Positions 8,627-36,106 of a DNA stretch of 64,000 nt are shown in pieces. Under the pieces are notes generated by a model. It was given only the letters and a program-made list of their open reading frames with translations. It was not told the DNA's origin and did no database searches. Made by a program: the position numbers and the translations under genes. The stretch comes from Acetobacter sp. DsW_063 (GTDB taxonomy: Bacteria > Pseudomonadota > Alphaproteobacteria > Acetobacterales > Acetobacteraceae), in assembly GCF_002153745.1 (NCBI RefSeq), contig NZ_JOPL01000040.1, positions 1-64,000 of the forward strand, read 5' to 3'. Position 1 is the first letter of the stretch. The number at the start of each line of letters is the position of its first letter.

Positions 8627-9268
8627 CTACCAGCGCGTGAGCCACGGCAGCGCCAACCGGGTGACAAGCGAGACGACGCCACACCCAAGAGAATACCAGA
8701 CCGCCACGTAGAGCGGATCGTCGAATGGGCATGCCATGACGAAGGCCAGCGCTCCCCAGGCGGCTGCAGCTGAACCAGCCGCCCATGCCGTACCACGCGG
8801 ATCGACCGAGGCGCCTCGCCGGACGATTACGCCGAGCGCCAGCGCCACCGGCAGAGACAACTCGATGATCTTCCGCGCACAACGCAACCCATGTACCGGG
8901 TCCAGACGCCGCCACAGGACAATCGGGCCGACCTGAGCCGCATCGATCACCCATCCTGCGGCCAGAGCCGCGAGCACGACGTAGCCGAGCGCACGCAAAC
9001 CTGGGCGTGGCGAGCGTGTCGGGTTGAGCGAGCGCAGCGTCGTCGTCGCGCCGATCACCATAATCACGGTCAGGCTTGCCGTCTTCCACCAGAAACTTGG
9101 CATACCCATTGCACGCGGCATATCCGGGCGCATCCAGCCCAGCGACAGCAGGACGACGATTTCGACAACGCAGAGCAATGCGAGAATCAGGGCTGCGCGG
9201 CGTGGGCTCTGCCGTCTGACGGGTTGCAATTCGGCCGTCAGGCGGCCGATCAGGGGGTCAGTCGACAT
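8627..9268 (-). CDS. nrsF: NrsF-type anti-sigma factor (DUF1109)
   Basis: 213 residues with a short cytosolic N-terminus and about six hydrophobic membrane segments, the NrsF layout. Two conserved-looking cysteine sites occur in or beside membrane segments (GLRCARKI and VMACPFDDPLY), as in family members where periplasmic-side cysteines are needed for signalling. It should hold SigF at the inner membrane until an oxidant or metal signal releases it. The gene overlaps the sigma gene by 11 bases and is last in msrB-msrA-sigF-nrsF. Confidence 0.85.
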   Translation of the reverse strand: MSTDPLIGRLTAELQPVRRQSPRRAALILALLCVVEIVVLLSLGWMRPDMPRAMGMPSFWWKTASLTVIMVIGATTTLRSLNPTRSPRPGLRALGYVVLAALAAGWVIDAAQVGPIVLWRRLDPVHGLRCARKIIELSLPVALALGVIVRRGASVDPRGTAWAAGSAAAAWGALAFVMACPFDDPLYVAVWYSLGCGVVSLVTRLALPWLTRW

Positions 9269-9788
9269 CGGCGCCTCGCATCACTACATCGCTCAGCCGT
9301 CCCAGGCCTCGGTGAATGTTGACCTTCACCAACGCAGCGGATTGTCCGGTCCGCCTTGCGGCTTCCTCAATACTGAAGCCCTGAAGCTTCACCAGACGAA
9401 TGACTTCGGCCTGAGCCGGTTTGAGCCGCGTGAGCAAGCGTTCCAGAGCATGCGCCGCCGTGACGGCGTTCTCATGGTCCATGACTGGTAGGTCGTCATT
9501 GAGAGACGTCATGTCCACCCGTCGCATCGCACGCAAACGGTCGATCCATTTATAGCGCGCGATCGCCGCGATCCATGGAGCAAAACCTTGCGCTGGGTCG
9601 AACGTGTGCCGCTTTTCATGAACCGCCAGCAGCGTATCCTGCACTGCGTCATCGACCATAGAGGGCGGCAGGCGCCTCTGGAAATAACGGCGTAGCCATG
9701 CCGACGCCTCGCGCAACACGTGGCGATAGGCGTCGGCGTCGCCATTCTGGGCGGCAGCCATCCACCGGCTCCAGTCAGCTTCGGTCAC
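9258..9788 (-). CDS. sigF: ECF RNA polymerase sigma factor, SigF (ECF16) type
   Basis: 176 residues with sigma region 2 (DDAVQDTLLAVHEKRHTFDPAQGFAPWI) and region 4 (LKPAQAEVIRLVKLQGFSIEEAARRTGQS, then VNIHRGL). Partner of the NrsF protein encoded next to it. The GTG start at 9788 follows a strong AGGAGG. Perfect matches to the Caulobacter SigF promoter (GTAACC-N16-CGAA) occur before msrB, before the divergent cytochrome gene and before the methionine-rich gene, so it probably drives its own operon and both divergent units. Confidence 0.88.
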   Translation of the reverse strand: MTEADWSRWMAAAQNGDADAYRHVLREASAWLRRYFQRRLPPSMVDDAVQDTLLAVHEKRHTFDPAQGFAPWIAAIARYKWIDRLRAMRRVDMTSLNDDLPVMDHENAVTAAHALERLLTRLKPAQAEVIRLVKLQGFSIEEAARRTGQSAALVKVNIHRGLGRLSDVVMRGADVD

Positions 9789-9827
9789 ACAGCCTCCTGA
9801 ATCTGGCGCGCAGCTCTTCCTGCCACG

Positions 9828-10529
9828 CTATCCGGCTCCGGCCAAGGTCAGGACTGGATCGTCCCGGTATACGGAACCGAACAGAGACTTGAGAGCAGCC
9901 ACGCGCGGGGCGTCGTAGGCGGCGATGTAAGGGTTGTACGGATAGCGCGCGGCGAAATTCTGATGCTCGACCTCCGCCGGGTAAAACCCTTTGTCGGGCG
10001 CTACAGCGGTAGCAATTGGACCGGAAAAGGCGTGCGCGGCTTCAAGCTGGGCTATGTAGGCGCGTGCGATCACTGCCTGTTCCCGCGTTCGAGCGAAGAG
10101 AACCGAGCGGTACTGGCTGCCCTCATCGGGAAACTGGCCGTCCGCCTGCGTCGGATCCAGCGCCACTGAAAAAAAGACGCGCAGGAGGGCGCTGTAGCTC
10201 ACCTGCGCAGGGTCGTATTCAACTTCGACGAATTCCGCGTGGCCTGTGCCACCGCCGCTGACAACATCGTACTCGGCCGTGCTGCGCGACCCACCGTCAT
10301 ACCCCACGCGCGTCGCAGTAACGCCACGCACGTGCTGGAACACGCTCTGCACGCCCCAGAAGCACCCCCCGGCGAACACCGCCGTTTCATGCCGCCCATC
10401 CGTTACGGACGTTTCTTTAAGAACAGGCGCCGGAAGCAAGATCGCCGAGCGCTCAGCCGCAGCCTGACACGCTGCGCCGAACAGTGTCGTGACCAGAATG
10501 GGAAAGACCCAGAATGTGGAGGTTTTCAT
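9828..10529 (-). CDS. msrA: Exported peptide-methionine (S)-S-oxide reductase
   Basis: Reduces methionine S-sulfoxide in proteins. 233 residues: a signal peptide (hydrophobic stretch ending near GAACQAAA), then the MsrA domain with catalytic Cys in GGCFWG and the GTGHAEFVEVEYDP block. No further cysteine follows the catalytic one, so recycling must use an external thiol. The export signal places it in the periplasm with the molybdenum enzyme and the methionine-rich protein of the locus. It lies 12 bases after msrB and 39 before sigF. Confidence 0.93.
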   Translation of the reverse strand: MKTSTFWVFPILVTTLFGAACQAAAERSAILLPAPVLKETSVTDGRHETAVFAGGCFWGVQSVFQHVRGVTATRVGYDGGSRSTAEYDVVSGGGTGHAEFVEVEYDPAQVSYSALLRVFFSVALDPTQADGQFPDEGSQYRSVLFARTREQAVIARAYIAQLEAAHAFSGPIATAVAPDKGFYPAEVEHQNFAARYPYNPYIAAYDAPRVAALKSLFGSVYRDDPVLTLAGAG

Positions 10530-10541
10530 GGAGACGATCCC

Positions 10542-11006
10542 TCAGGCCGGGGTGAAGGAGAGGGCCACGCCGTTCGTGCAATAACGCAGACCCGTCGGAG
10601 CCGGCCCGTCATCGAAAACATGACCAAGATGACCGCCGCACGTGGCGCACAGAACCTCCGTGCGTTCCATTCCCAGAGAGTCATCGGCGTGTTCCTGCAC
10701 TGCTCGCGGCAATGCGCGAGTAAAGCTGGGCCAACCAGTGCCGCTATCGAACTTTGCTGCGGCGTCGAAGACCGCCGTAGCGCAACCGATGCAGGAAAAA
10801 CGCCCCGGCCTGTGCTCGTCCAGGAGCGGGCTGGACCAGGGGGCTTCGGTGCCCGCTTCGCGCAACGCGTTGTATTGGGCGGATGTGAGAGCCCGGCGCC
10901 ATTCGGCGTCGGTTCGCGTAACCGGAAAATGTGTCTGAGCGCGGCTGGCCTCGCCTGCGACCGACAATATCGCAGCAGCAAGGAGGAACTGGCGTCGAGC
11001 GAACAT
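10542..11006 (-). CDS. msrB: Exported peptide-methionine (R)-S-oxide reductase
   Basis: Reduces methionine R-sulfoxide. The 154-residue protein has zinc-binding CIGC and CATC pairs, the GTGWPSF block and catalytic Cys in RYCTNG. The N-terminus ARRQFLLAAA matches a twin-arginine signal, so it is probably exported folded with zinc bound. First gene of the leftward operon, with a perfect SigF-type promoter about 40-65 bases upstream and GGAGA before the ATG. Confidence 0.93.
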   Translation of the reverse strand: MFARRQFLLAAAILSVAGEASRAQTHFPVTRTDAEWRRALTSAQYNALREAGTEAPWSSPLLDEHRPGRFSCIGCATAVFDAAAKFDSGTGWPSFTRALPRAVQEHADDSLGMERTEVLCATCGGHLGHVFDDGPAPTGLRYCTNGVALSFTPA

Positions 11007-11044
11007 GGCGGGTCTCCGTCCATTCGGTAAGTGACGCTGCGTTC

Positions 11045-11070
11045 TTCGACAGATCGCGTCGACCGGTTAC
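11045..11070 (-). promoter_or_regulatory. SigF-type promoter of msrB-msrA-sigF-nrsF
   Basis: On the minus strand GTAACC (11070-11065), a 16-base spacer and CGAA (11048-11045) match the consensus reported for Caulobacter SigF exactly. It sits about 40 bases before the msrB ATG, which implies autoregulation of sigF. Confidence 0.8.
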
Positions 11071-11102
11071 ACCTTCGGCAACCACTTATTTTTTCGCGCG
11101 AC

Positions 11103-11128
11103 GTAACCTTTCGGTCGCGCCCGACGAA
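11103..11128 (+). promoter_or_regulatory. SigF-type promoter of the cytochrome b/molybdoenzyme genes
   Basis: GTAACC (11103-11108), 16 bases, CGAA (11125-11128), 35 bases before the ATG at 11164. It is divergent from the msrB promoter. Confidence 0.8.
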
Positions 11129-11163
11129 CGTGCGATCATGGCATCTGTGAAAGTTTTCCCGGT

Positions 11164-11787
11164 ATGGCGCATCGCCCTCGTTCGCCGTCGCTCGTTACCC
11201 GCATCACGCATTGGGTCGGCGCCCTGTCCATGCTCGTAATGATCGGCAGCGGCTGGCAGATCTACAATGCTTCTCCGCTTCTGCCCTTCATCTTTCCTGC
11301 ATGGGCGACATTGGGCGGATGGCTCGGCGGCGGAATTGCGTGGCATTTCGCCGCGATGTGGTCGCTGATGGGTAGCGGAGCTGTCTACCTGATCCACGGC
11401 ATGGCGTCGGGGCGTCTGCGCCGTGACCTGCGGCCTCGCGCCGCGCATTTGCTGCTGCGCGATCTCGGGCTGGCCGCCCGCTTACGCCTGACACATGCAC
11501 CCGCAACATACAACGCCATACAGCGCCTGCTGTACAGCTGCGTTTTGGGCGTCGTCATACTGGCGGTCGCAACGGGACTGTCTATCTGGAAACCCGTGCA
11601 ACTTGGTTTTCTGGCGTGGGCTTTTGGCGGCTACGACATCGCCCGATGTCTGCATTTCGCATTGATGTGCCTGATCGTCGGTTTCCTGATCGTGCATGTC
11701 TGCCTCGCTTTGATCGTGCCTTCGACACTGTTTGGCATGGTGTTTGGGCGGCGCGTTATTGTGATCGACGAGGACGAATCCTCATGA
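11164..11787 (+). CDS. Membrane cytochrome b, YedZ1-like partner of the molybdoenzyme
   Basis: 207 residues with four or five membrane segments and the start RITHWVGALSMLVMIGSGWQIYN typical of b-type cytochromes that serve molybdopterin oxidoreductases. Conserved-looking histidines in several segments (THW, AWHFAAMW, CLHFAL, VHVCL) could bind two haems. It should pass quinol electrons to the periplasmic molybdoenzyme whose start codon overlaps its stop (ATGA). It belongs to the cytochrome b561 group rather than the MsrQ/YedZ family, as in the Azospira YedZ1 system. Confidence 0.82.
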   Translation: MAHRPRSPSLVTRITHWVGALSMLVMIGSGWQIYNASPLLPFIFPAWATLGGWLGGGIAWHFAAMWSLMGSGAVYLIHGMASGRLRRDLRPRAAHLLLRDLGLAARLRLTHAPATYNAIQRLLYSCVLGVVILAVATGLSIWKPVQLGFLAWAFGGYDIARCLHFALMCLIVGFLIVHVCLALIVPSTLFGMVFGRRVIVIDEDESS

Positions 11788-12533
11788 AACGTCCAACGAT
11801 CGATCATAGCCTCATCGCCTCGGAGTTACGGCGCGTAGAGAGACGATTCATGCTGAAAAGCGCGTTGTCGCTGGGCGGGCTGGCGATGCTGTCAGGCTGC
11901 GCGATCGACGACGAACCATCCGTCGAAAAGGCGCTGGCCACGATCATGGGGTTTACCGATCGTGTTCAGGCCATGATATTCAGCCGCAACCGGCTGGCCC
12001 GCGAATTCTCTACCGCGCAAATAACGCGTCCGTTTCCATTCAACGCCTATTATGATCAGGACGACATTCGCGTCGTCGATGAAACACGCTGGCGATTGGA
12101 GGTTTCCGGTCTGGTTTCTGACAAGCGCCCCTGGTCTTTGGCGCAGTTCCGGGCTCTTGAACAGCAGCGACAAATCACACGCCACATTTGCGTCGAGGGG
12201 TGGAGCGCTATCGGTTCATGGTCAGGCGTGCGGCTCTCAGCATTTCTTCAACATATTGGAGCGGACACACGGGCCAAATACGTCAAATTCGGGTGCTTCG
12301 ACGATTATTCGACCAGCATCGATATGGAGACCGCCCTGCATCCTCAGACGATCATGGTTCTGGATTTCGACGACGCGTCTCTTCCGCCTGCCTATGGCGC
12401 GCCTATGAAGATCAGGATTCCAACCAAGTTGGGCTACAAAAATCCGAAATATCTCGCGTCGGTAGAAGTCACAAATATTTTCCCTGGTGGATACTGGGAG
12501 AATCAAGGTTACGACTGGTTTGGAGGATCATAA
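11784..12533 (+). CDS. Periplasmic molybdopterin oxidoreductase, YedY1/MsrP-like
   Basis: 249 residues of the sulfite-oxidase fold. The Mo-coordinating Cys is in HICVEGWSAIGSWSGV and the domain ends with the usual NIFPGGYWENQGYDW tail. The N-terminus has twin arginines (ERRFMLKSAL) followed by a lipobox LSGC, so Tat export with lipid anchoring is likely. It probably reduces methionine sulfoxide in exported proteins with electrons from the cytochrome encoded upstream. It is the second gene of the rightward SigF unit, next to the methionine-rich protein, as in hypochlorite-scavenging loci. Confidence 0.85.
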   Translation: MKRPTIDHSLIASELRRVERRFMLKSALSLGGLAMLSGCAIDDEPSVEKALATIMGFTDRVQAMIFSRNRLAREFSTAQITRPFPFNAYYDQDDIRVVDETRWRLEVSGLVSDKRPWSLAQFRALEQQRQITRHICVEGWSAIGSWSGVRLSAFLQHIGADTRAKYVKFGCFDDYSTSIDMETALHPQTIMVLDFDDASLPPAYGAPMKIRIPTKLGYKNPKYLASVEVTNIFPGGYWENQGYDWFGGS

Positions 12534-12543
12534 AAATATTCCT

Positions 12544-12569
12544 GTAACCCGATGCCTCCGCCATTCGAA
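12544..12569 (+). promoter_or_regulatory. SigF-type promoter of the methionine-rich gene
   Basis: GTAACC (12544-12549), 16 bases, CGAA (12566-12569), about 60 bases before the ATG at 12632. This third exact match in under 2 kb gives the small gene its own SigF-driven transcript. Confidence 0.8.
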
Positions 12570-12631
12570 GAGTATCATACGGGAGAGGGCGAACGCTTTC
12601 TCTCACGCAAAACCTGCCACGGAGAAAAAAC

Positions 12632-12967
12632 ATGTCTTTCCGTTCACTCGTTCTGGCAACGGCCGCTTCTTCGATTTTCGCGTTGGGCGGCGTCGCTCAC
12701 GCACAAACCCCGGCTGCTGCTGCCCCCATGTCTCCCGGAACCGTGATTCCTGACGGCGCGACGACTGGCAACATGGCGCGATCCAAAATAATGCCTGCCG
12801 GAGTTGGACACATGAGTATGGCGGGCGACGCTTCGCACGAGCATATGTCACCGAATAACAGCATGGCGAAAATGCATGCAGGAATGATGATGAAGAAAGA
12901 TGCGGCGCCTCCTGCTCCAAGCATATTGAATACGCACGACGAGAAATCAAACAGTTCGGAAAAATAA
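12632..12967 (+). CDS. Secreted methionine-rich protein, MrpX-like
   Basis: 111 residues with a clear Sec signal cleaved after AHA (residue 24). The mature 87 residues contain 11 methionines plus several histidines, concentrated in GHMSMAGDASHEHMSP and MAKMHAGMMMKK, in a disordered Ala/Pro/Gly context. In Azospira a comparable periplasmic Met-rich peptide (MrpX) absorbs hypochlorite and is regenerated by YedY1. The same neighbours here support that role. A copper-binding function is the main alternative because of the Met/His clusters. GGAG precedes the ATG. Confidence 0.8.
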   Translation: MSFRSLVLATAASSIFALGGVAHAQTPAAAAPMSPGTVIPDGATTGNMARSKIMPAGVGHMSMAGDASHEHMSPNNSMAKMHAGMMMKKDAAPPAPSILNTHDEKSNSSEK

Positions 12968-13039
12968 TTTTCTTAAAAAAATTCTCTTCGAAATCTTGCC
13001 TTGTGTTTTTTCAGAATCGCCTGCAGGAGCAGATCGTCC

Positions 13040-14119
13040 ATGTCACTGATACGGCAGAAAGCAACAGAAAAAGGAAATCTTGGGCGCGTCGGTATTGTCA
13101 TCGGCGTTCCTGTTGCTCTTGCGTTCGCCTTTATCGCCGCCGCCGGCTGGTTCACCCCCGATCGCCTGACGCCGGCCACGGTTGTGCGCACGTTTGACAG
13201 TGTTGACGGTCCACACCCCGGTTTTCGTCGCAATCACGCAAAAGGCGTTTGCGTGAGCGGATGGTTCGAGGGAAGCGGCCAGGCCTCTCCTTACTCCAGC
13301 GCCGCGTTGTTCAGGGTGGAGCGCTCTCCAGTCATCGGACGCTTCGCGCTGGCGGGCGGACAGCCCTATCAAGACGACGCGCCAGACAAAGTGCGCAGTC
13401 TCGCCCTTCGGATCATGCCCGCCAACGGCGGCGAGTGGCGTATGGGCGTGAACGATATTCCGGTATTCCTCTTTCGCAATGCGCGTGATTTCAACTCGTT
13501 CCTGATCGCCTCCCTTCCGGAAGCGACAACGCGCAAGCCGGACCCCGCTCGTATCGGCGCGTTTCTGGCCGCGCACCCCGAAACGGCTCGCGCGCTCAGC
13601 CAGATAAAACAGCGCTCCCTATCGTCGGGCTTCGCCAACGACGCCTATAACAGCCTTGACACCTTCCTATTCGTCAACGCGGGCGGGCAAGCGACGCCTG
13701 TGCGCTGGACAATGGAGCCGGAGCAGCCTGCTCCAGCGCAGAATAGCGTCAAGACCGGTCGCGATTACCTGTTCGACGACCTTACGGCGACATTGGCCGA
13801 GCATCCATTGCGGTGGAAGTTGATGATCGTTCTTGGACAACCTGGAGATCCTACGGCTGATCCCACTGTCGCATGGCCTGTCGGGCGAACACGCATCGAC
13901 GCAGGGACGCTTGTTCTCGACAAGGCGGAAGGCGAGGATGGCGGACCATGTACAGGCATCACGTTCGATCCCCTGATCTTGCCTGAGGGTATAACTCCTT
14001 CCGACGATCCGATCCCCGCCGCACGTTCGGCTGTCTACGCCCGTTCTTTCACAGCACGGTCAGGCGAGACGAAGGCGCCCAGCGCGATCAATCTAAATTC
14101 CACCCGGAGCGGAAAATAG
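13040..14119 (+). CDS. Catalase-related haem peroxidase, membrane-anchored (SrpA-like)
   Basis: 359 residues. One N-terminal membrane segment (VGIVIGVPVALAFAFIAAAGWF) precedes a minimal catalase domain with the distal-side block HPGFRRNHAKGVCVSGWF and the C-terminal YARSFTAR region that should provide the proximal tyrosine. The family decomposes or uses peroxides in the periplasm. The start is the ATG at 13040 behind CAGGAG. It lies 72 bases after the Met-rich gene with no obvious new promoter, so it may be co-transcribed from the SigF promoter. The cytochrome b561 gene follows two bases later. Confidence 0.85.
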   Translation: MSLIRQKATEKGNLGRVGIVIGVPVALAFAFIAAAGWFTPDRLTPATVVRTFDSVDGPHPGFRRNHAKGVCVSGWFEGSGQASPYSSAALFRVERSPVIGRFALAGGQPYQDDAPDKVRSLALRIMPANGGEWRMGVNDIPVFLFRNARDFNSFLIASLPEATTRKPDPARIGAFLAAHPETARALSQIKQRSLSSGFANDAYNSLDTFLFVNAGGQATPVRWTMEPEQPAPAQNSVKTGRDYLFDDLTATLAEHPLRWKLMIVLGQPGDPTADPTVAWPVGRTRIDAGTLVLDKAEGEDGGPCTGITFDPLILPEGITPSDDPIPAARSAVYARSFTARSGETKAPSAINLNSTRSGK

Positions 14120-14121
14120 TC

Positions 14122-14679
14122 ATGTCTGAAAGAAAATATTTCTCCCCGCTCGCACGGGGACTACACTGGGCCATGGCGCTGATGATTCTCGCTATGTTGT
14201 TCATCGGCGTCGCCATGGTCGCCAGCACGGGCCCGGCGTATCATCGCCTTGTCGGACTCCACCGTCCTCTGGGAATAGCGATTCTGGCTCTGGCTTTTTT
14301 ACGGCTGGTCAACCGCGTCGCATCCGGCGCGCCGCCACTGCCGACGACGCTGCCCCAAGGGATACGCATCCTCGCAGGAAGCTCGCAGGTCGCGCTTTAT
14401 CTGCTGATGATCGCCCTGCCGCTGGTCGGATGGGCCATGCTGTCCGCAGGAGATTATCCAGTTTCGATGACAAGCGGCGTCACCTTGCCTCCGATCGTGT
14501 CGCCCGACCCTGCTCTGTACGCTTCCTTGAGGGGGCTTCATACGTGGTTGGCGCTAGGACTGTTCGGCGTAATCCTCGCACATATCACTGGGGCGCTTGT
14601 TCATGGTCTCCTGCTCAGGGACGGCGTATTTCAAGCTATGTTATGGAGGCGTCCGCAGGCCTCAACACGGATTGAGTAA
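14122..14679 (+). CDS. Cytochrome b561 (CybB family)
   Basis: 185 residues with four membrane helices and the family start RGLHWAMALMILAMLFIGVAM. Histidines in helices 1, 2 and 4 (LHW, GLHRPLG, GLHTWLALG, LAHITGALVH) are the expected haem ligands. Catalase-like proteins of the SrpA group are often paired with such a cytochrome, which probably delivers quinol electrons to the periplasmic haem protein. It begins two bases after the catalase-like stop. Confidence 0.86.
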   Translation: MSERKYFSPLARGLHWAMALMILAMLFIGVAMVASTGPAYHRLVGLHRPLGIAILALAFLRLVNRVASGAPPLPTTLPQGIRILAGSSQVALYLLMIALPLVGWAMLSAGDYPVSMTSGVTLPPIVSPDPALYASLRGLHTWLALGLFGVILAHITGALVHGLLLRDGVFQAMLWRRPQASTRIE

Positions 14680-26220: not shown

Positions 26221-28026
26221 ATGCCTGTCGGATCGTTCGTTTACCGTCGCGGCGACACCTATTCGTTTCGTTGTAAGGTGCCTGCAAACCTCCGTTCCAA
26301 GGGGGTTAGACGGGAGGTCTTGTTCGCCCTTGGAACGAGGGATCGGGACGTTGCTCGACTACTCTGCGCTGCGGTAGGGCTACGGCTCGGACAGGTCTGG
26401 CGGGATGTCGAGCGCGTGGCGGATTACAAACAGGTAGAGACGCTGATCCGGGACTGGTTCAAAAGGGCCTTGGCTAAGGCGTGGCACGACAACTTTCTTG
26501 ATCCCGAACGCCACGCAATCCCCGCCGATTGGACATCTGCGACTGGCGAATGGCATCCCCTGTCGCAGGATGACAGAGCGCGCATGTTGGCTGATTATGC
26601 CGATCACTTTGAGCGGCAAGTCGAAGAAGGCGACATCGGTCCGGCGAACTATCGGAAAGAAGCACGACGATTAGCCGACGCGGGATCGGTCCCACTGGAT
26701 AGTCGCGAGGTTGAGGTGGTCGCCGGTCAGATGCTTTCGGGCGATGCGGCGATTGCCAACGCTACCGCCCGCTGGGCGACTGGCGAGACGGATTATCAGC
26801 CGGTGTGGGGGCCTGAACTGCCGGAGACCATGTTTCCTCGATTGGTGAAAGAGGTTGATTCCGACACTTCGCGTCGGCAGCGCAAGACGCGTTCAGTGCC
26901 GAAACACGGCGTCGATGCCGCCGGGCTGACGATCTCACAGGCTTTCGAGCGCTATGTGAACGAGCGCAAGCCGAAACCGGCCACGATCACTGGGTATCGA
27001 ACAAGCGTTCAGCGTTTCGTCGACATCATCGGCGACAAGGATGTCGCCCATGTTACAAAGCGGGATATAGCGGCCTTTAAAGATGCGTTACTGGGCTTCC
27101 CGAAGGTGCTGAAGGCTGCCGATCGGGGCTTATCGGCGCGCAGCGTGATCGACCGCTACAAGGATCGACCGGAGGCGCAACGGCTGTCTGCCGTGACGAT
27201 TAACGCGAAGCATATCTCGGGCGTGTCGGTATCGCTGCAATGGGCCTCGGAGAATGGCTATATCGACACTGTGGTATCGCGCGGGGTGCGCGCAAAAGGA
27301 CCGAAAAAGTCCAAGAAGGACGAGAGGCTGCCATACAGTATCGTGGATCTGAACACGATATTTAGCCTTCCGGTCTATACAGAAGGTTATCGTCCCATCG
27401 GCGGAGCGGGCGAAGCAGCCGTGTGGGTGCCGTTACTCGCACTGTTTACCGGCGCGCGATTGGATGAGATTGGCTCATTGAAGGTCGAGCACGTCACGAA
27501 AATAAGCGGTATCGATCTGATCCTGATCGACGACGGCAAGACTGACAACGCCTATCGTAAAGTTCCGATTCACGACGAACTAAAGCGCTTAGGATTCTTG
27601 CGCTATGTCGACGGACGGCGGAGCACTTCGAAGGGAACTGATAAGCTATTTCCACTTATGCGCGTGGGAAGCTCGAAGAAAGACAGCACGGCGTTCTCTC
27701 AATGGTGGGGTCGTTACGCGCGCGCGGTGGTGCCTGACAAGCGGAAGGTGTTTCACTCATTCCGGCATACGGTGAAGCGGACATTGCGGAACGCCAGCGT
27801 TGAAAAGCCACTTCGCGACGCCCTCATGGGGCACGAAACTGACGACGTGGCTGAAGATTACGGTCTGGATGAAGACGGCATCGGATACGAGATTGAGAAT
27901 CTGCACAAAGCAATACAGAAGATACGGTATCCCGGCCTAGAGATTATAATTGCCACGGCCCCTGCTTCAAAACGCAAAAGGTATCGGCGGTATACGCCAA
28001 AGAGGTCACGCTCTGACAGGCCGTGA
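26221..28026 (+). CDS. Tyrosine recombinase (phage-type integrase)
   Basis: 601 residues. The N-terminal part (MPVGSFVYRRGDTYSFRCKVPANLR) resembles the DUF6538-type arm-binding region of long integrases. A SAM-like core-binding domain is at about 245-350 (ISQAFERYVNERKPKPATITGYRTSVQRF). The catalytic domain has Arg in GARLDEIG, HxxR in HSFRHT, the GHE motif and the nucleophilic Tyr in EDYGL. It should integrate the element at tRNA-Ser 87 bases upstream. The C-terminus is very basic. Confidence 0.92.
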   Translation: MPVGSFVYRRGDTYSFRCKVPANLRSKGVRREVLFALGTRDRDVARLLCAAVGLRLGQVWRDVERVADYKQVETLIRDWFKRALAKAWHDNFLDPERHAIPADWTSATGEWHPLSQDDRARMLADYADHFERQVEEGDIGPANYRKEARRLADAGSVPLDSREVEVVAGQMLSGDAAIANATARWATGETDYQPVWGPELPETMFPRLVKEVDSDTSRRQRKTRSVPKHGVDAAGLTISQAFERYVNERKPKPATITGYRTSVQRFVDIIGDKDVAHVTKRDIAAFKDALLGFPKVLKAADRGLSARSVIDRYKDRPEAQRLSAVTINAKHISGVSVSLQWASENGYIDTVVSRGVRAKGPKKSKKDERLPYSIVDLNTIFSLPVYTEGYRPIGGAGEAAVWVPLLALFTGARLDEIGSLKVEHVTKISGIDLILIDDGKTDNAYRKVPIHDELKRLGFLRYVDGRRSTSKGTDKLFPLMRVGSSKKDSTAFSQWWGRYARAVVPDKRKVFHSFRHTVKRTLRNASVEKPLRDALMGHETDDVAEDYGLDEDGIGYEIENLHKAIQKIRYPGLEIIIATAPASKRKRYRRYTPKRSRSDRP

Positions 28027-28106
28027 AACCAAAGGTTCGGAGGGCCATCGGCAGAAACGGCGAACTCCGCGACATCGTCCACGGAGCCCACAATCAGGGT
28101 TACTAA

Positions 28107-31100
28107 TCAGCCACTTTTAAGCACGTTGCGAAGATTGCCGGGTCTCGTGGCGTGCTTGATGACCGTATCGATCACCCAAGCGTCGCCGTCGAATTTTGGC
28201 GTGCCGCTCTGAACCTTCATATCCTGTCCAGTGGTGTTGGAGACGTTCATTGTGATCTTCGGGGCTGATGACGTTGCGGGCTGTGCCTGCATGGCGGGAG
28301 CGTTCGCATTTGCTGCCCCGGCATACGCTGCGGCGATATCCTGTTGAGACTGATACGCCGATCCCATTGCCGCCATCTGGCCACGGGTGAAGACGCCCTC
28401 GCCCCGTTGCAGGATCGCCGGGATTTCGTTTCCGGCGATGCCGCCGGTGTGATAGCGCGTCGCCTTATCGAACAGGCCAGACGGAACCACGCGGGTGAAG
28501 GTCTGCTCGCCCATGCCCACGATGCCGCCGGTGTGGAAACCCGACACGAGCGAGCCGACGCCGCTAAAGTCTGACAGGTCGCCAGCCTGCGCTGCTCCGA
28601 ACGCACTTGTCGCGGTTTTTCCAAGCCCGAACAGACTTAGCAGGCCGCTCCCGCTATCGCCGCTCGTGCTTCCGCCCCCAAGCATTTTTAAGAGCGGCGA
28701 CATCGCAAGCTTAATCGCGATTGCGTCGATCTCCTTCATGACGGACTGGCCGAAGCTTCTCCACGAGGCCGTTCCGCTCGCAAGTTGCGTTGAAAGCGTG
28801 TCGGCGAAGTCGCTGGCGAAAGTGGCGGTCGCCTGATCCATTTCGTCTGTTACGTCGCTCCACTGGCGCCCCAGCTTGGCAGTTGCGCCCTCCGTCTGCC
28901 GATTTACCTCGGCGATCTTCGCCCGGATGAAATCGGCGGTTTCGGCAGTAAGCTGCTGCCGCTCCCCGTTATCGGTCACGAATTTATCGATAGAGGATTG
29001 AAGCGCCGACGCCTCGTAAGTGACTGTATCCTGAGCGGCCTTCCTGCGTCCTGCGGCGCTGTCGTCCCAGCTTTTTAGAATGTCGGCTGCCGCCTCCCTG
29101 TTCGCATTCACCTGCTGACGAACCAACGCCAGCCCCTCGGCGGCATACGCTTGATCTGCGGCCTGTGACGCCTGGACTCCCGTTTGCGTGGATGTGGGGT
29201 CTTGCCGGGCGGCGGCGACGAGTTCCGCCTGCTGGCGCTTCATGCGATCAAGCTGCTTCTGGAACGACGCTTGTGGACCCTCTGATAGCTCAAATGCTGC
29301 GCTGGCCGCGTCCTGCTGCGCCTTCGTGACGTTCGCTTGCAGTGCGGCAAGCGCCTGTTGCGCCTGTTCGAAACGCTTCTGTGCAGCGGTGGCCTGATCC
29401 AATTTGGCGGCAAGGTCCATGATCTGCGCCGATTGGGCCTTCAACGGCGCACCGGCGGTCTTGAGCTTTTCAGCCCATTTCGCGGTCTCGGTCCCGCCGC
29501 CCGTCATGCTCGCGTTAAGCTCTGCGAGGCGTGCTTTCAGTTCTGTGACAGCATTCGTGGCTGCGCCTGCGGCCTTGGCGCCTCGATTCATAGCGTCGAT
29601 GCGTGCTGCGGCACTCTCTTTATCGAAAAGCTGATCGGCCTCGGCGCTGGCCGCTGCTCCTGTGCCGTTCTGGCGGGTAAAATCTTCCTTGTCATACTGA
29701 GCCTGTAGCAAACCGGCGCTTAGCCCATTGTCCTGTCTCTGGCGGGCCTGAGTGAGCGCAAGGCGGCGTGTCGCGTTCCTGACGGCGTCTTGCCCATTGG
29801 CCGCGCCGATACCGTCCAGCGACGTTTGCAGGGCCTTGCGCTGGGCGTCTGTGAGATTGCGGCCCTGTCCAGATTGATCGGCAGGATCGGCTTTTAAGTT
29901 CGCAGCGACCATTGCAGCCTGAAAACCACCCTGAGCGCGGGCCGATGCTTCGACAAGCTGATGGTTCAAGTCGGCTATCGCTGCTGCGGCTGGTGTCGCT
30001 CTCTGGCGAAGCAAATCCAGCACTTGCGAGGCACGCAAAACCCCATCGTTATACGGGATAGTCACGTCGTGGCCGGTTTGGATGGCTTGGTTTAATTTCT
30101 GGATCAGTCCGGCGCTGTCGTCGTGACTGAAACCAAGCGTCTTTACCGCTGCCGATAGCGCGTCGGCTGCTTCCGACGCCTCGTGTTGCTGCTTCGCGGT
30201 TGCTGCCGCCGCCGCATCGGCAGCTTTGTCGGCGTCTGCTTGGGCTTGAAGCTGTGTGATCAGGCTCTTCGTGGCGGCGATGCGCTCATTCAAAACTGTT
30301 CCCGTGCTGCCAATCTCTGGCGTGTCGCTGGCGAACATATTGAATGCTGGCTGATTCTTCTGTTGCGCTTGAAGGTCCGCAAGCTGTTGTTTTGCCCGTT
30401 CTAGCTGGGTTGAGACGGTGCTTGTCATGTCGTCTGCGGCCCGCTGCGCCAGCTTGGCGATACCCTGATCGAATGAGGCGAGAAGCTGGCTTAAACCTAG
30501 CTTCTGGTCCAGTTCGGCTCGAAACTGGTCCAGCGCCGTGGACATGTTTTGACGGGCTGCTTGGAGCGACACGGGTAGGTCGTTGAACTGCTTTTGGACC
30601 CTTGCGCCCATCGTCTCGACGGCCTGAGCGACCGTCTCGGTATCCAGCTTCCCGGCGTGCGCCATTTCTTCGAGCTGGCCGACTGTGACGTGCAGTGAAT
30701 CGGCCAACGCTTTTCCGAGCGGCGGCATATCCTGCATGACCACTTTTAGCTGACGCATATTGACGTTGCCGGTGGCCATCCCCTCCGCCAGTTCGCGAAA
30801 AGCGCGGTTGGCTGCGGCGCTTGTCGTGCCGGATACGTGCGCGAGAGTCGAAAGTGTCGTCGTGAAATCGACAATCTGCTCGCGGGACTGGCCGACGCCG
30901 CTTAACGCGATCTGGAAATTCGTGAAGCTCTTCACAAGCTCGCCGGTATCGATACCCGTCTGGACTGCGCCCCTCTCCAACGCATCAAAGGTCTCGGCAG
31001 CGACGTTTCTGGACGTGCCGAGAACTGCTTGAATGCGGCTGACGGACTGGGTGTAGGCGTCGCCTGCTTCGATCAGGGCTGCAACCTGCTCCTTCGCGCC

Positions 31101-31568
31101 TTCGATAACCTTTTCGAACGCATCTGCGGCGAGCGTGGCGGCGGTGAAGCCTGTCGCTAGGCTCGCTACGTTCGCCAGTGACGCACCTAGTCCAGATGAA
31201 GCGCCGGATGTGGCCGTTGAGGCTTTGGGGGCCGTTGTGGTGGCTGTGGCGGGCCTTGTGGCGGCGCTTGCCTGTGCAGAGGCGGCATTGTTGATCGCCG
31301 CTGCGGCCTTCTGCGCGGCTTGGGCCGTGGCGTCTGCCTGTCTCTGAAGCGCCGCGAGTTGATCGGTGCTTTTCTGTGTTGCCGCGCTCATGCTTGTCAT
31401 GCCTGAAGCGCGAGACATGGCGGCGTTAAGATCATTTACCGACGCTGCTGCGGCTTTGGCGCTGGCCGAAAGCGTCTTGATTGATCCATCGGCCTTTATG
31501 ATCTTCGTGACGAAGGTTCCGTCCCCGTTAAGCTCAAGGTCAACGGATAGCGTGCCGATGCTGGTCAT
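28107..31568 (-). CDS. Phage tail tape-measure protein
   Basis: 1153 residues. The N-terminal region (about 155-345) matches the tape-measure N-terminal domain, for example YTQSVSRIQAVLGTSRN and GMATGNVNMRQLKVVMQDMPPLGKALAD. Long Ala/Gln-rich helical and coiled-coil stretches follow. The C-terminus carries GFHTGGIVGMGE, YHTGGIAGNEIPAILQRGEGVFTRGQM, as in lambda-like siphophage proteins. It sets tail length and helps DNA entry. It starts in the last bases of the preceding small gene. No other tail gene is adjacent, which is odd for a functional prophage. Confidence 0.9.
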   Translation of the reverse strand: MTSIGTLSVDLELNGDGTFVTKIIKADGSIKTLSASAKAAAASVNDLNAAMSRASGMTSMSAATQKSTDQLAALQRQADATAQAAQKAAAAINNAASAQASAATRPATATTTAPKASTATSGASSGLGASLANVASLATGFTAATLAADAFEKVIEGAKEQVAALIEAGDAYTQSVSRIQAVLGTSRNVAAETFDALERGAVQTGIDTGELVKSFTNFQIALSGVGQSREQIVDFTTTLSTLAHVSGTTSAAANRAFRELAEGMATGNVNMRQLKVVMQDMPPLGKALADSLHVTVGQLEEMAHAGKLDTETVAQAVETMGARVQKQFNDLPVSLQAARQNMSTALDQFRAELDQKLGLSQLLASFDQGIAKLAQRAADDMTSTVSTQLERAKQQLADLQAQQKNQPAFNMFASDTPEIGSTGTVLNERIAATKSLITQLQAQADADKAADAAAAATAKQQHEASEAADALSAAVKTLGFSHDDSAGLIQKLNQAIQTGHDVTIPYNDGVLRASQVLDLLRQRATPAAAAIADLNHQLVEASARAQGGFQAAMVAANLKADPADQSGQGRNLTDAQRKALQTSLDGIGAANGQDAVRNATRRLALTQARQRQDNGLSAGLLQAQYDKEDFTRQNGTGAAASAEADQLFDKESAAARIDAMNRGAKAAGAATNAVTELKARLAELNASMTGGGTETAKWAEKLKTAGAPLKAQSAQIMDLAAKLDQATAAQKRFEQAQQALAALQANVTKAQQDAASAAFELSEGPQASFQKQLDRMKRQQAELVAAARQDPTSTQTGVQASQAADQAYAAEGLALVRQQVNANREAAADILKSWDDSAAGRRKAAQDTVTYEASALQSSIDKFVTDNGERQQLTAETADFIRAKIAEVNRQTEGATAKLGRQWSDVTDEMDQATATFASDFADTLSTQLASGTASWRSFGQSVMKEIDAIAIKLAMSPLLKMLGGGSTSGDSGSGLLSLFGLGKTATSAFGAAQAGDLSDFSGVGSLVSGFHTGGIVGMGEQTFTRVVPSGLFDKATRYHTGGIAGNEIPAILQRGEGVFTRGQMAAMGSAYQSQQDIAAAYAGAANANAPAMQAQPATSSAPKITMNVSNTTGQDMKVQSGTPKFDGDAWVIDTVIKHATRPGNLRNVLKSG

Positions 31569-31969
31569 TGCGGACGCCCTCCAAAAGCCCCGAGGTGTGG
31601 CGCTGAGGCATCCCCGGCGCGCTGCACGTAAGTCCTACCCGGAGGGGTTCGAAACAGCCCAACGGCCTTTTCTGCCGCGTCTTTGGCCACTGCATGAACA
31701 ACGGCGCAGGCCAGACGCGATCCCGCATCGGCCTTTGCGCAGATGCCGCGCCACCAGTCGTCTTTGCGCCAGACTAGCGCGCCGTCCTGTGTGACAAGGG
31801 CGACATATGGCCGACGTAGCAATGTTGCGAAGACGACTTCAGCATCGTCAGACACGCGGATACGGTTTTTGATGCGGGCCAGAGCCAAGAAAGGCCCCAT
31901 TTGCTCCGGCGCGAGTAGCAGCGGCTCGTTGTGTTTGGACTCGATCCGTCCAGTCGGTGAATTTTGCAT
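31565..31969 (-). CDS. Hypothetical protein coupled to the tape-measure gene
   Basis: 134 residues, starting MQNSPTGRIESKHNEPLLLAPEQMGPF. It contains VVFATLLRRPYVALVTQDGALVWRKDDWW and a C-terminal GRTYVQRAGDASAPHLGAFGGRPQ. AGGGAA precedes the ATG at 31969. An open frame extends upstream but has no binding site. The stop overlaps the tape-measure ATG by four bases, so translation is coupled. By position it could correspond to a tail assembly chaperone, but I see no family match. Confidence 0.6.
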   Translation of the reverse strand: MQNSPTGRIESKHNEPLLLAPEQMGPFLALARIKNRIRVSDDAEVVFATLLRRPYVALVTQDGALVWRKDDWWRGICAKADAGSRLACAVVHAVAKDAAEKAVGLFRTPPGRTYVQRAGDASAPHLGAFGGRPQ

Positions 31970-32105
31970 GATGATTTCCCTGAAAATAGGTGATCTTTTC
32001 AGAGAAATTATAGCACATAACTGGGTTATTTGCATTTTCTATCTGTGCCACACTGACGGCCAATCTTGGGGCTACAGGTGGGCTACAATATGGCTACGGG
32101 TAAGA

Positions 32106-32130
32106 AAAAGCCCGCTTCGAGCGGGTTATG
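32106..32130 (-). terminator. Rho-independent terminator
   Basis: CCCGCT (32111-32116) and AGCGGG (32120-32125) form a stem. On the minus strand it is followed by CTTTTTCTTA. It terminates the small gene at 32159-32353 before the tape-measure unit. Confidence 0.75.
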
Positions 32131-32158
32131 TTCGTGGCGGTTCCATTGGTGCGACCTC

Positions 32159-32353
32159 TCAGTTCGGAAGGACGATAATCTGCGTGCCATCCCCTACCAA
32201 AGAAAAGGACCGCTCTTCGCCGTCCAGATTCACCCCAGAGGTGACATCCACCCCGTTTATCTTGCGGTATCGCAGTGTCCCCCGCACTCTTGCAGACTCT
32301 ACGGCGTCGGCGACTTTTGAGTAATCAGAAATAAACCACGATTGGCGTGACAT
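32159..32353 (-). CDS. Small hypothetical protein of the element
   Basis: 64 residues, soluble, mixed composition (MSRQSWFISDYSKVADAVESARVRG). The middle and C-terminus look like beta strands (GTLRYRKINGVDVTSG, SFSLVGDGTQIIVLP). CCGGAG precedes the ATG and a terminator follows, so it is probably expressed. No family is recognised. Confidence 0.6.
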   Translation of the reverse strand: MSRQSWFISDYSKVADAVESARVRGTLRYRKINGVDVTSGVNLDGEERSFSLVGDGTQIIVLPN

Positions 32354-32435
32354 GCTATTATCTCCGGTTGATGGCCAATCGTAGGTAAATCAGCCTCGAT
32401 TCGTCAATCGGATATTTCAAAAAGTTGCTTTGTAG

Positions 32436-32687
32436 TTAGCGATAGATAACTAACGGCGTAGCATCTTCCGCGAGGTAGAGATCAAGGGTCTCGCAATACC
32501 ATATGGCTATTGCGCCATCCCCAAATTCAAATTCGTGGACGATGAAAAACAGGCCACCAACCGCCACGAACCGGGAGAAGTAACGGGCCTTCCTCGCAGA
32601 AACCATGAGATTGAACCGGCTATCATCGCTGATCACATGCTGGGGAAAGCTTTCTCGGCGCTCAATCACTGCCGGGACGGCGCTCAA
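32436..32687 (-). CDS. Hypothetical protein of the element
   Basis: 83 residues, beginning MSAVPAVIERRESFPQHVISDDSRFNLMVSARKARYF, with hydrophobic strands later (VAVGGLFFIVHEFEFGDGAIAIWYCE). The start overlaps the stop of the 122-residue gene upstream (ATGA), so the two are co-translated. Function unknown. Confidence 0.55.
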   Translation of the reverse strand: MSAVPAVIERRESFPQHVISDDSRFNLMVSARKARYFSRFVAVGGLFFIVHEFEFGDGAIAIWYCETLDLYLAEDATPLVIYR

Positions 32688-33052
32688 TGGGCTGCCCCGG
32701 CATACATGAGGGAAACCCCGAGGTCGCCAAAAAACAGGGCGGCCCGCGCCAGTTCTCTCTTATCTTCGATAGCAAACAATTCTGCCCTTAAAGTTGACTC
32801 ATCCCACGCGAAGCCTCGCCCATCGGGAATGCCGTCAATCTCTGCGATCTCAGCGATCACATGCGGCTGGTCGTTGAGATTACAGTGATGGAGGTCAACG
32901 ATTCCCCAAATGAGGCTTTCGCTACGGGTCGTGGTTATGTCCCGCGCCATACGCAGCATCTCCGGCATATTGTGCGCCGGGATAAAATGCGTCGCGTCAT
33001 CCGGCGCACCAGTTGGGTTAGGAAGCAGCGAGTCTCCACCGTCTTGAATCAT
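32684..33052 (-). CDS. Hypothetical protein of the element
   Basis: 122 residues, acidic, with HFIPAHNMPEMLRMARDITTTRSESLIWGIVDLHH and a C-terminal helix ELARAALFFGDLGVSLMYAG. AGGGGGG precedes the ATG at 33052. First of a coupled pair with the 83-residue gene. It lies 34 bases downstream of the Rep-like gene and may share its transcript. No family is recognised. Confidence 0.55.
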   Translation of the reverse strand: MIQDGGDSLLPNPTGAPDDATHFIPAHNMPEMLRMARDITTTRSESLIWGIVDLHHCNLNDQPHVIAEIAEIDGIPDGRGFAWDESTLRAELFAIEDKRELARAALFFGDLGVSLMYAGAAH

Positions 33053-33086
33053 GATTACCCCCCTATCTGGTTGAGAGATAATTATA

Positions 33087-34685
33087 TCACGATTCGCAGA
33101 TTTCCGCCATTTCTAAAGGCATTTTCGTCCTGCCAACGGGTGTTGTTCCGTCATCCGGCGCATAACGTTTGGGTCTAGGATATATCAACGCCGAAGTCCG
33201 CTCCGCCATCTTTGCGATACGGCGAGTCTCGATTATCGTGTTTGCGATGATATCGGGATCGGCCCGCCCTGCATCCGACCTAGCGGCTGTGTGGGCCTTT
33301 CGTGACAACGATACGCAGCGCGTCGGTCTATTGCCGGACTGCTTTTGAAGGTCTGTTTTCAGGCGGCCTTGTTCCGACATGTCCTGAGACGTGATTGGCG
33401 ATCCGTCCTTGCGCCTGCCCATAACAAAGCTTGGGTCGATGCTTTTGGACAGGTATTGTTGAACGCGGGGAATAACATCATGACGGAGTATAGGCGCTTC
33501 GCCTGCGATCCAGAAAGGGAGGTCATTTGGGCATACGGAAAGCAGGCGCAGATACAGGGAGTCGGCTGTTTCCCGCGCCTTGAATGGGATGCCCTTGTCT
33601 GTCGCAAGCTGTTTAAGCCTTACTGAACAGCGCTTGGCCAGACGACTGCGTATCGTGGCCGTGATGGTTGAGTAGTCGCCGGGGGGTAAATGCAAGGCCA
33701 TATGACAATGCAGCCCCTTTCCTCCGGCATGGTCGTTTTCAAGCATGCTGACGGAGAACGTCGATGTGCTGGTATGATGACGGATCGCATCACGAATGGT
33801 CTTGCGTATCACGGAATCCGTGACGCCCTCATCAAGCCGGGTTAGGTTGTAAGCCAGAACCTGATTTGCAGGCTCTGCCGATTCCAAGCTGCCTTCGACC
33901 GCACGAAGAAGTCTCTCCACCTGGGTTGCAGGTGTGTATGTTCGTGGTGTGTGGACTCGTGGTTTGTAGCTTCTAGGTCTGTGGCTTGCAGGTTGCGAGT
34001 TGGGTTCTGCCTCTAACTCTGACTCTGTCGCCCCATATGTCTCTACCTTCTTCATATGGTCTTTAGGATAGTGAGAGTCCTTATGGTCTTTAGTATCTAT
34101 ATTCCTAAAGGACTCTTTTAAGCCTCCCTTCGCGGCGCAATCGGCCATTTCGCTAGGCACTTTGTCCGACTGCGGTTTTTCTGCGGTGGCTGATGGTCTC
34201 GGCTGCGATTTCAATTGGTGAAAAACTGCACCCTTGCTCACTTCGTGAGGGGAATTTGCATCCTCGGCTGGCGCAATTTCAATTGGTGAGAAATTACATA
34301 CCCCGGCTTCCTCGACGGCGTGCTTCACTCCGTCTGAACTCATGTCGGGAAGCTCGGCGATGATCGCGGCCGCATCTGCATCGGTCATCAACCGGCGCGA
34401 GGAATTGCTTGCTGGCTTGATTACGGATGCAATGAGCGCCTCGATATCGGCGGATGACTTGTGGAGATATGGCCGCCACACGCTCCCCGGCACCCCGGTT
34501 TCCTTCGCCCAATCGCAAAAGCTGTCTGCGACGATCTCCATGGCCGCATCGGCGTCACCCATACGTGCATGAGCTTCCCTCACCTGATCGGTGACGATCT
34601 CCTTAAAATATGCATGTTCTTCCGGCTGCTCCGCCTTGATGTAGGCAGACAGTCGGGCAAGGAACTCTGTGGCAGATACTTTCAT
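33087..34685 (-). CDS. Candidate HUH-endonuclease replication protein
   Basis: 532 residues. The N-terminal 270 are variable, acidic and partly low-complexity (PRSYKPRVHTPRTYTPATQ). The C-terminal region resembles a rolling-circle Rep: a possible motif 1 (VLAYNLTRL, about 285), a clear His-x-His motif 2 (GLHCHMALHLP, about 328) and a possible motif 3 with nucleophile Tyr (VQQYLSKSIDPSF, about 418). If correct it nicks the element's origin to start replication. The match is by motif only. A relaxase or an unrelated phage protein remains possible. Confidence 0.5.
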   Translation of the reverse strand: MKVSATEFLARLSAYIKAEQPEEHAYFKEIVTDQVREAHARMGDADAAMEIVADSFCDWAKETGVPGSVWRPYLHKSSADIEALIASVIKPASNSSRRLMTDADAAAIIAELPDMSSDGVKHAVEEAGVCNFSPIEIAPAEDANSPHEVSKGAVFHQLKSQPRPSATAEKPQSDKVPSEMADCAAKGGLKESFRNIDTKDHKDSHYPKDHMKKVETYGATESELEAEPNSQPASHRPRSYKPRVHTPRTYTPATQVERLLRAVEGSLESAEPANQVLAYNLTRLDEGVTDSVIRKTIRDAIRHHTSTSTFSVSMLENDHAGGKGLHCHMALHLPPGDYSTITATIRSRLAKRCSVRLKQLATDKGIPFKARETADSLYLRLLSVCPNDLPFWIAGEAPILRHDVIPRVQQYLSKSIDPSFVMGRRKDGSPITSQDMSEQGRLKTDLQKQSGNRPTRCVSLSRKAHTAARSDAGRADPDIIANTIIETRRIAKMAERTSALIYPRPKRYAPDDGTTPVGRTKMPLEMAEICES

Positions 34686-35053
34686 TGGTGGTCTGGGGGT
34701 CAGAAGGTTGCGGCGGAAGCTTGCGGGCTCAGTTCGGTCTGGGCTGTATCGGATCGGAGATGTTCGCCTCAGCGAAGGACGCGGCTGGTTCGACCGCCGC
34801 GCCCCCCGCCTCGGGCAAGCTCCTGACCTTCCGGGCCAGACAATTATTTTAACAGCTCGAATGCGTGGATTCTACAAAATTCGATCCAGTCGGGTATTTT
34901 GCCGGATTTTGGAACGTGTGGCCCCGTATATATTGGCAGGGGGTTAACGGGGCGGTGATTGCTGGATTTCGGAAAGCCGGGCCGTCACAGACTGCTATGG
35001 ATGGAGGGTTTTTCCAAAAAATCTAAGACTTCGTCTTTTTTGATACATCCACG
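34686..35053. other. Intergenic region of the element
   Basis: About 370 bases between the Rep-like and HTH genes. No gene is recognised. If the Rep-like call holds, this stretch is a possible origin. It ends in a short hairpin. Confidence 0.35.
35015..35041 (-). terminator. Weak rho-independent terminator after the HTH gene
   Basis: AAGAC (35025-35029) pairs with GTCTT (35033-35037), extended by A- and T-runs on either side. On the minus strand a T-run follows. It sits just after the HTH gene stop. Confidence 0.45.
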
Positions 35054-35671: not shown

Positions 35672-36106
35672 GGCGTTTCTGGTCCTGCAAAGGTTGTGGT
35701 GCTGGTTCTATTATACCACGTAAAATAGTGAATTAATTTCACGATCTGGCTTCTGCCTGATCGATTGCAGATTCAGGGATGGCGGAAAGGCACGATGCGT
35801 CGTGCCGCTCTTCTATCCTTCACGACAAAACGGCGACCGTATTTCGCTTCTGCCTGATCGATGCCCTCGCCCCATCCTCCATGACCGATGAATGACCCCT
35901 CCGGTGATGAGCATGACGCCTTTCCGACGACGGTATCTCCCGGTGGCGACGATCTCGGCCTGATTTGGCGCTTCCTATTTTCCCGTCTCATTGTCGTGTC
36001 TGAAATCTATTTTTTGCGTGCGTCTCGGTGGCTTCCAGTGTCGTCCGATGCGTGTATAAACATTGGCAACGAAGGTAGTCTGAATTTATACGGGTGTGGA
36101 TAACTT
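35672..36106. other. Region with a 17-bp direct repeat, no clear gene
   Basis: GCTTCTGCCTGATCGAT occurs at 35749-35765 and 35846-35862, 97 bases apart. A 72-codon minus-strand frame (35773-35991) covers the second copy but has no ribosome binding site. An AT-rich stretch around 35710-35740 and the right end may hold the promoters of the divergent HTH and serine recombinase genes. Confidence 0.35.

Follow-up and report, generated by a model that had tools for sequence, protein, structure and literature searches.

Organization of the locus

The window analysed here, a stretch of 64,000 nucleotides from Acetobacter sp. DsW_063 (positions 1 to 64,000 of NZ_JOPL01000040.1), carries a group of nine genes that appears to form a stress-controlled set under one regulator, the sigma factor SigF with its anti-sigma factor NrsF, repairing and removing oxidant damage outside the inner membrane. 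Open reading frames (ORFs) and Pfam matches defined two operons diverging near 11.05 kb (Table 1). The leftward operon contains msrB, msrA, sigF and nrsF, the last two overlapping by 11 bases. To the right lie cytB1 and a yedY-like gene whose start (11784) is overlapped by the cytB1 stop by four bases; they are followed by genes for a methionine-rich protein, a catalase-family protein and a second cytochrome of b561 type. The last two of these genes lie within the segment 8627-14679 covered by the initial annotation, which did not mention them. The assembly (3.03 Mb, locus on contig C159) is 69% complete, approximately one-third of the genome being absent.

Table 1. Genes and promoter elements of the SigF locus (window coordinates)
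Feature	Position	Strand	Description
nrsF	8627..9268	-	NrsF-family membrane anti-sigma factor; PF06532 134.1 bits (cut-off 26.8)
sigF	9258..9788	-	extracytoplasmic function (ECF) sigma factor, GTG start; Sigma70_r2 and r4_2
msrA	9828..10529	-	PMSR 171.7 bits; TIGR00401 above cut-off
msrB	10542..11006	-	SelR 150.3 bits; TIGR00357 above cut-off
P1	11045..11070	-	GTAACC-N16-CGAA upstream of msrB-msrA-sigF-nrsF
P2	11103..11128	+	GTAACC-N16-CGAA upstream of cytB1-yedY
cytB1	11164..11787	+	b-type cytochrome; PF01292 68.9 bits
yedY-like	11784..12533	+	molybdopterin oxidoreductase; PF00174 98.1 bits
P3	12544..12569	+	GTAACC-N16-CGAA upstream of the methionine-rich gene
mrpX-like	12632..12967	+	exported methionine-rich protein, repeat eroded; assigned by Met content and position, no family match
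peroxidase	13040..14119	+	catalase family; PF00199 79.5 bits
b561	14122..14679	+	cytochrome b561; PF01292 87.5 bits

Promoter elements in the window and in the genome

The initial annotation had described three exact matches to GTAACC-N16-CGAA, correctly oriented and 35-65 bases from a start codon. All three were found at these places (P1, P2 and P3 in Table 1). Their orientation was right, and the distances to the start codons were 38, 35 and 62 bases, respectively, the last one counted from 12569 to the ATG at 12632. By chance 0.12 exact matches are expected in the window, and none of 100 shuffled sequences contained three or more. The base preceding GTAAC is T at P1 and P3 and C at P2, thus all three elements fit the ECF16 consensus (T/C)GTAAC-N17-CGAA (PMC8315932).

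A scan of the 3.03 Mb for the exact pattern, as had been proposed, yielded 10 sites compared to four for the reversed control pattern. The seven sites outside the locus look like chance occurrences: six are inside ORFs of at least 400 amino acids (five of them antisense) and one is in a 186-amino-acid ORF. A looser pattern was not enriched in the genome either (54 matches versus 77 for the reversed control), and a wider regulon was rejected. Since the outside sites fall in ORFs and the loose pattern shows no excess, the SigF signal is confined to the locus in the assembled part of the genome. Two of the sites, 482 bases apart on contig C157, were considered as a possible second SigF operon. 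This was rejected, both being antisense within one 513-amino-acid ORF.

Conservation of the elements in related loci

NrsF was detected in 72 of the 150 genomes of the family (71 above the cut-off) and in four of the 49 genomes of the genus, including the window's own. From the 82 match rows in the family, 40 regions covering 42 rows were examined; these were mostly the best-scoring ones, and some near contig ends were omitted. Four other loci of the genus were also examined. Nine of the 40 family loci and all four genus loci contained divergent msrB-msrA-sigF-nrsF and cytB1-yedY operons together with the three elements, their sixth base being C or T. In the family loci (630,907 bases) GTAACC-Nn-CGAA occurred 58 times with n=16; the twelve other values of n between 10 and 22 gave four occurrences altogether.

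To determine the placement of the element, 26 SigF-NrsF loci (SigF match of at least 200 bits, the window included) were used. The genes were placed first, then the element, with C or T allowed in its sixth position, was sought within 200 bases upstream. It was present before msrB in 16 of the 18 cases where this gene was the operon head, and before cytB1 heads in 16 of 17. Of 22 yedY rows, among which a locus with a broken yedY is counted twice, 16 had the element after the gene, and it preceded sigF heads in 6 of 11. No element was found before operon-internal sigF (0/15) or operon-internal cytB1 (0/4), and upstream of other genes, which served as control, there were three in 244. Comparison of the msrB and cytB1 heads with the control gave a Fisher p of 4e-35, too small a value given the relatedness of the loci. 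When the window was compared to each of its two nearest relatives, differences were present at 0 of 30 box positions in both cases and at 12 and 4 of 48 spacer positions; this comparison is only illustrative, as the boxes served to find the sites.

The exact elements, the published consensus, the conserved places and the fixed spacing of 16 make SigF control of the locus very likely. The suggestion that SigF acts through three promoters was strongly supported by conserved position and spacing.

In one otherwise complete locus (L046, genome G079, 11253-12003) the yedY-like gene consists of two overlapping frames, which could be a sequencing error or a broken gene; the msrB start of this locus was misplaced in the placement test. 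Two loci outside the family, from Methylobacterium (L178) and Sphingomonadales (L202), have msrB/msrA and cytB1-yedY in other gene orders with the element nearby. This indicates that the presence of Msr genes in this setting extends beyond the family.

Proteins encoded by the locus

The adjoining gene for an NrsF/DUF1109-family anti-sigma factor and the promoter sequence assign SigF to the probable ECF16 type. C130 and C180 of NrsF were invariant in all 15 aligned sequences, and correspond by position to C131/C181 of the Caulobacter and C129/C179 of the Bradyrhizobium protein. These equivalent cysteines matter in both organisms (PMC3511200, PMC3420878). No solved structure related to NrsF was found at E 1 or better.

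MsrA and MsrB scored above the cut-offs of their family models, and the presumed catalytic cysteine is present in both. MsrA has an N-terminal export signal (by eye) and beyond it a single cysteine, C56. The cysteine outside the signal region is also single in 18 of the 19 rows from relatives, including L054, whose end is shortened. MsrB carries a Tat-like twin-arginine (RR) signal (by eye) and C143 in an RYC motif, and has no cysteine at SGTGWPSF, the usual resolving place; the same applies to 17 of 18 relatives' rows. In the absence of a resolving cysteine both enzymes would depend on a thiol donor from elsewhere. A DsbD-type protein was present, one per genome, in the six genomes searched, the window's included, with no visible link to SigF. 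The motif around C143 reads RYCTN (10575-10580), while all 18 relatives' rows have Met instead of Thr (RYCMN in 16). The rest of the assembly encodes one more MsrA, on contig C142, and no other MsrB.

The YedY-like enzyme has a lipobox-like LSGC sequence (by eye). Its Cys136, which we take to be the molybdenum ligand, was invariant in 13 of 13 sequences and aligns with the cysteine of the RCVEAW motif of 1xdq. One more protein of the YedY superfamily is encoded in the assembly, on contig C133. CytB1, the presumed electron donor of the YedY-like enzyme, matched PF01292 only, and not the ferric-reductase family to which MsrQ belongs.

The next gene has the place, after yedY and behind a promoter of the sigma factor, as well as the export signal (by eye) and the methionine content of an mrpX gene. 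The protein contains 11 methionines in the 87 residues from Q25, and did not match any Pfam or NCBIfam family. Its more distant relatives at the same place matched TIGR02953, the MXKDX repeat model, with 79.5 (L042), 72.9 (L044) and 61.7 bits (L056), all three above the cut-off of 41. In the window lineage all three proteins have 8 to 11 methionines after the signal, and the ratio of nonsynonymous to synonymous substitution rates (dN/dS) is 0.41-0.42 for this gene compared to 0.04-0.34 for the eight other genes of the locus. Judged from these sequences, the usual methionine-rich scavenger is partly worn away in the window lineage.

The peroxidase-b561 pair

The catalase-family protein has an N-terminal membrane anchor (by eye). 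The nearest solved structure was 3e4w (E 3e-30), which we take to be a mycobacterial catalase-related peroxidase. The HAKG and RSAVY motifs align with HAKG and RTLVY of 3e4w, in agreement with the distal His and proximal Tyr of a catalase core; these motifs presumably hold the haem residues. The adjoining b561 is the presumed electron donor of the peroxidase.

Among the loci examined, only three have this pair after the methionine-rich gene: the window and its two closest relatives, L116 (genome G168) and L117 (contig C45 of genome G181). Over 16 kb, flanks included, these relatives share 89.7% and 95.2% identity with the window, respectively. In genome G181 a second locus, on contig C56, lacks the pair; 10.95 kb of it show 99.9% identity with Gluconacetobacter diazotrophicus PA1 5. 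The pair was absent from the 40 family loci, one of which (L043, full layout) is not informative because it ends 39 bases after mrpX. In a limited search of the literature no peroxidase was found in a SigF locus.

Homologous pairs occur elsewhere. In the window's own genome a second copy (66% and 64% identical) lies at 5154-6784 of L118, on contig C141, with no element in the 11 kb examined and no ECF sigma gene within 1.5 kb. Twelve pairs outside SigF loci were examined. Nine of these, including the two other copies in the window genome, had no ECF sigma gene within 1.5 kb, whereas three (L122, L123 and L127) had one of another kind, accompanied in L122 by a likely anti-sigma gene. Genome G048 contains two pairs (L123 and L128), and the L128 peroxidase is split in two frames. 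In two Paraburkholderia loci (L181 and L209), which belong to the best 80 YedY loci of named genomes, a peroxidase gene is located approximately 1.5 kb after cytB1-yedY; an ECF sigma gene adjoins it, followed in L209 by the gene of a zinc-finger protein, and no b561 partner was found. Altogether such peroxidases have an ECF sigma gene of their own nearby in 5 of 14 loci. In these five loci the peroxidase belongs to the same protein family as that of the window and the sigma factor is, by best match, not SigF. The idea that an own sigma factor is the usual neighbour of the pair was abandoned, as it holds for only three of the 12 pairs and the two Paraburkholderia loci.

Comparison with known systems

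The initial annotation likened the locus to the hypochlorite system of Azospira, and regarded the exported MsrA and MsrB as an addition. The likeness, drawn from published descriptions (PMC4623255, PMC8315932), stands in outline. In detail it fails at two points: the MXKDX model did not match, and the cytochrome belongs to PF01292 and not to the MsrQ family. The addition is not new: exported MsrA/MsrB are encoded beside sigF, nrsF, yedYZ and mrpX in two perchlorate islands (PMC4623255), and the 13 relatives' loci from family and genus share the layout. Msr genes are a common theme of ECF16 regulons (PMC8315932), and anti-sigma, sigma and both Msr families have been described near chlorite dismutase (PMC9751292).

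The perchlorate-reducer SigF-NrsF/YedYZ/MrpX system has the same regulator pair, a molybdoenzyme with membrane partner, a methionine-rich gene and exported MsrA/MsrB. It differs from the window, where Pfam identified none of the nine locus proteins as a chlorite dismutase or the product of a perchlorate gene, the sigma operon begins with msrB-msrA, the repeat is eroded, and peroxidase and b561 are added. Brucella BcrS-AbcS/bcrXQP is similar in its ECF16 pair, its divergent promoters of the same consensus and its mrpX-like and msrQP-like genes; it is induced by hypochlorous acid (HOCl), and its two operons, as described in the excerpt, include no msrA/msrB or peroxidase (PMC8315932). Bradyrhizobium EcfF-OsrA shares with the window an NrsF-type anti-sigma factor with two cysteines, three Msr genes in the regulon and an autoregulated sigma gene, but the targets are scattered in the genome and the consensus is GTAAC(g,a)-N14-15-(t,c)CG(t,a) (PMC3420878). 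Caulobacter SigF-NrsF has the GTAACC-N16-CGAA promoter and a YedY gene in the regulon. It differs from the window in that the expression of msrA homologs is unchanged, induction is by chromate and cadmium, the targets include DUF2282, DUF692 and DoxX genes, and autoregulation is weak (PMC3511200). A putative catalase gene with a divergent ECF sigma gene has also been described in Burkholderia cenocepacia (BCAL3477/BCAL3478); the two genes rise with H2O2 and not significantly with NaOCl (PMC2830190).

Proposed mechanism and alternatives

We think it likely that the locus holds a compact SigF-NrsF (ECF16) stress regulon. In the resting cell SigF would be held at the membrane by NrsF. When HOCl or another strong oxidant that reacts with sulfur reaches the envelope, it would oxidise the conserved NrsF cysteines and free SigF; this cysteine-based release and the oxidant induction, as well as the enzyme activities, are modelled on the published relatives. 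Free SigF would then start transcription at the three GTAACC-N16-CGAA promoters. P1 would direct synthesis of exported MsrB and MsrA and of more SigF-NrsF (autoregulation), P2 that of the b cytochrome and the YedY/MsrP-like molybdoenzyme. From P3 the exported methionine-rich protein would be made and, in the window lineage, also the membrane-anchored peroxidase of catalase type along with a b561 of its own; co-transcription of this pair from P3 is proposed here alone. Jointly the products would eliminate the oxidant and reverse the oxidation of methionines in both stereo-forms. In Brucella, HOCl induces the sigma operon and the mrpX-msrQP-like operon (PMC8315932). In B. cenocepacia BCAL1105-1107, coding for an exported protein, a cytochrome b561 and an oxidoreductase, rise with both H2O2 and NaOCl (PMC2830190); our guess from these descriptions is that they might correspond to mrpX, cytB1 and yedY.

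Several observations weigh against this interpretation. NrsF reached 65.9 bits with the NCBIfam equivalog, whose cut-off is 300, and the YedY-like enzyme 80.6 bits with the MsrP model (cut-off 207). The methionine-rich proteins of the window, L116 and L117 had no TIGR02953 match. Two of the 18 msrB heads, one of the 17 cytB1 heads and five of the 11 sigF heads lack the element, and many of the compared loci are closely related, thus the counts are not independent. The spacing signal was weaker in the best 80 loci that the YedY alignment retrieved from named genomes (33 sites with n=16, 27 with the other twelve values together, nine of them with n=20); a SigF match above 100 bits was present in 10 of these 80. 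In Caulobacter, chromate and cadmium elicit a response of the SigF genes, generators of reactive oxygen species do not, and sigF is not strongly autoregulated (PMC3511200). RpoE7 fusions in Sinorhizobium meliloti were unresponsive to H2O2, cadmium and chromate (PMC6180224). As members of ECF16 answer different signals, HOCl is not established as the inducer.

Coincidence as the source of the three elements is extremely improbable: the loose pattern is, as mentioned, not enriched in the genome, but the match is exact, its positions are defined by genes and its spacing is fixed across several genera. That the inducer is a metal (chromate, cadmium or copper) instead of hypochlorite, and the His/Met-rich protein binds it, seems decidedly unlikely. 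Such a role would agree with the response of Caulobacter SigF to chromium and cadmium (PMC3511200), and the HMSM, HEHM and KMHAGMMMKK stretches of the window protein could bind Cu(I). However, the neighbouring genes encode methionine-sulfoxide and peroxide enzymes, Pfam detected no metal exporter or copper oxidase among the nine locus proteins, and all three relatives' proteins tested fit the MXKDX model, one of them having a chance-level CopI match (E 0.25).

It is rather unlikely, though possible, that SigF governs the two operons behind P1 and P2 as well as mrpX, and the peroxidase-b561 pair is a chance neighbour outside the regulon with its own or a constitutive promoter. This would be in line with its absence from the 40 family loci (with the reservation made for L043), with the homologous pairs elsewhere, including the copy on C141 that has no element, and with a sigma-70-like promoter match inside mrpX (12765-12792) upstream of the peroxidase gene, one of two such matches found in the region where 2.0 are expected. 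Against it, the gap between mrpX and the peroxidase gene is only 72 bases and contains no terminator-like site. The junction is also kept in the two relatives, which is weak evidence in view of their close kinship, and the peroxidase genes downstream of cytB1-yedY in the two Paraburkholderia loci hint at a working link. A further reading is regulon capture, in which the third SigF promoter would have acquired the pair downstream, with the sacrificial methionine-rich peptide of this operon losing its repeat. We regard this as unlikely but conceivable: the occurrence of the peroxidase family with an own ECF sigma gene in five of 14 loci elsewhere makes capture possible, without proving it.

Distribution and significance

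A match to 64% of the locus query, with 69% identical DNA, was found at 70089-73963 of NZ_CP014677.1, a 177-kb plasmid of Kozakia baliensis. This plasmid copy and the patchy presence in the genus suggest that the locus moves. For an empty-site comparison ten genomes of the genus were searched. All ten contain a prpB-like gene, and the 1.5 kb on each side of it matched only three prp-like proteins of the window (names by eye). Nine of these genomes have no NrsF match, and the tenth (G151) has its SigF locus elsewhere. Other parts of the window contain integrase-like, tape-measure-like and resolvase-like ORFs (26221-37271), a possible prophage remnant, and three ORFs resembling a dnaE2-imuB-imuA mutagenesis cassette (58103-63517), all recognized by eye.

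On the evidence of its sequence the locus is a genuine ECF16 oxidant regulon that has been conserved. It is of an ordinary kind, and its 3' end has changed in the window lineage. A compact regulon of this type, promoters included, is conserved across several genera of probable acetic acid bacteria. The kind was already known; distinctive here are the added peroxidase pair and the partly eroded methionine-rich scavenger. The added peroxidase may exemplify how a module exchanges its sigma factor in nature. If capture did take place, an enzyme supplied with electrons from the membrane would be replacing a methionine sponge that is consumed, and the repair of sulfoxides and the removal of peroxide in the periplasm would both be under a single sigma factor.

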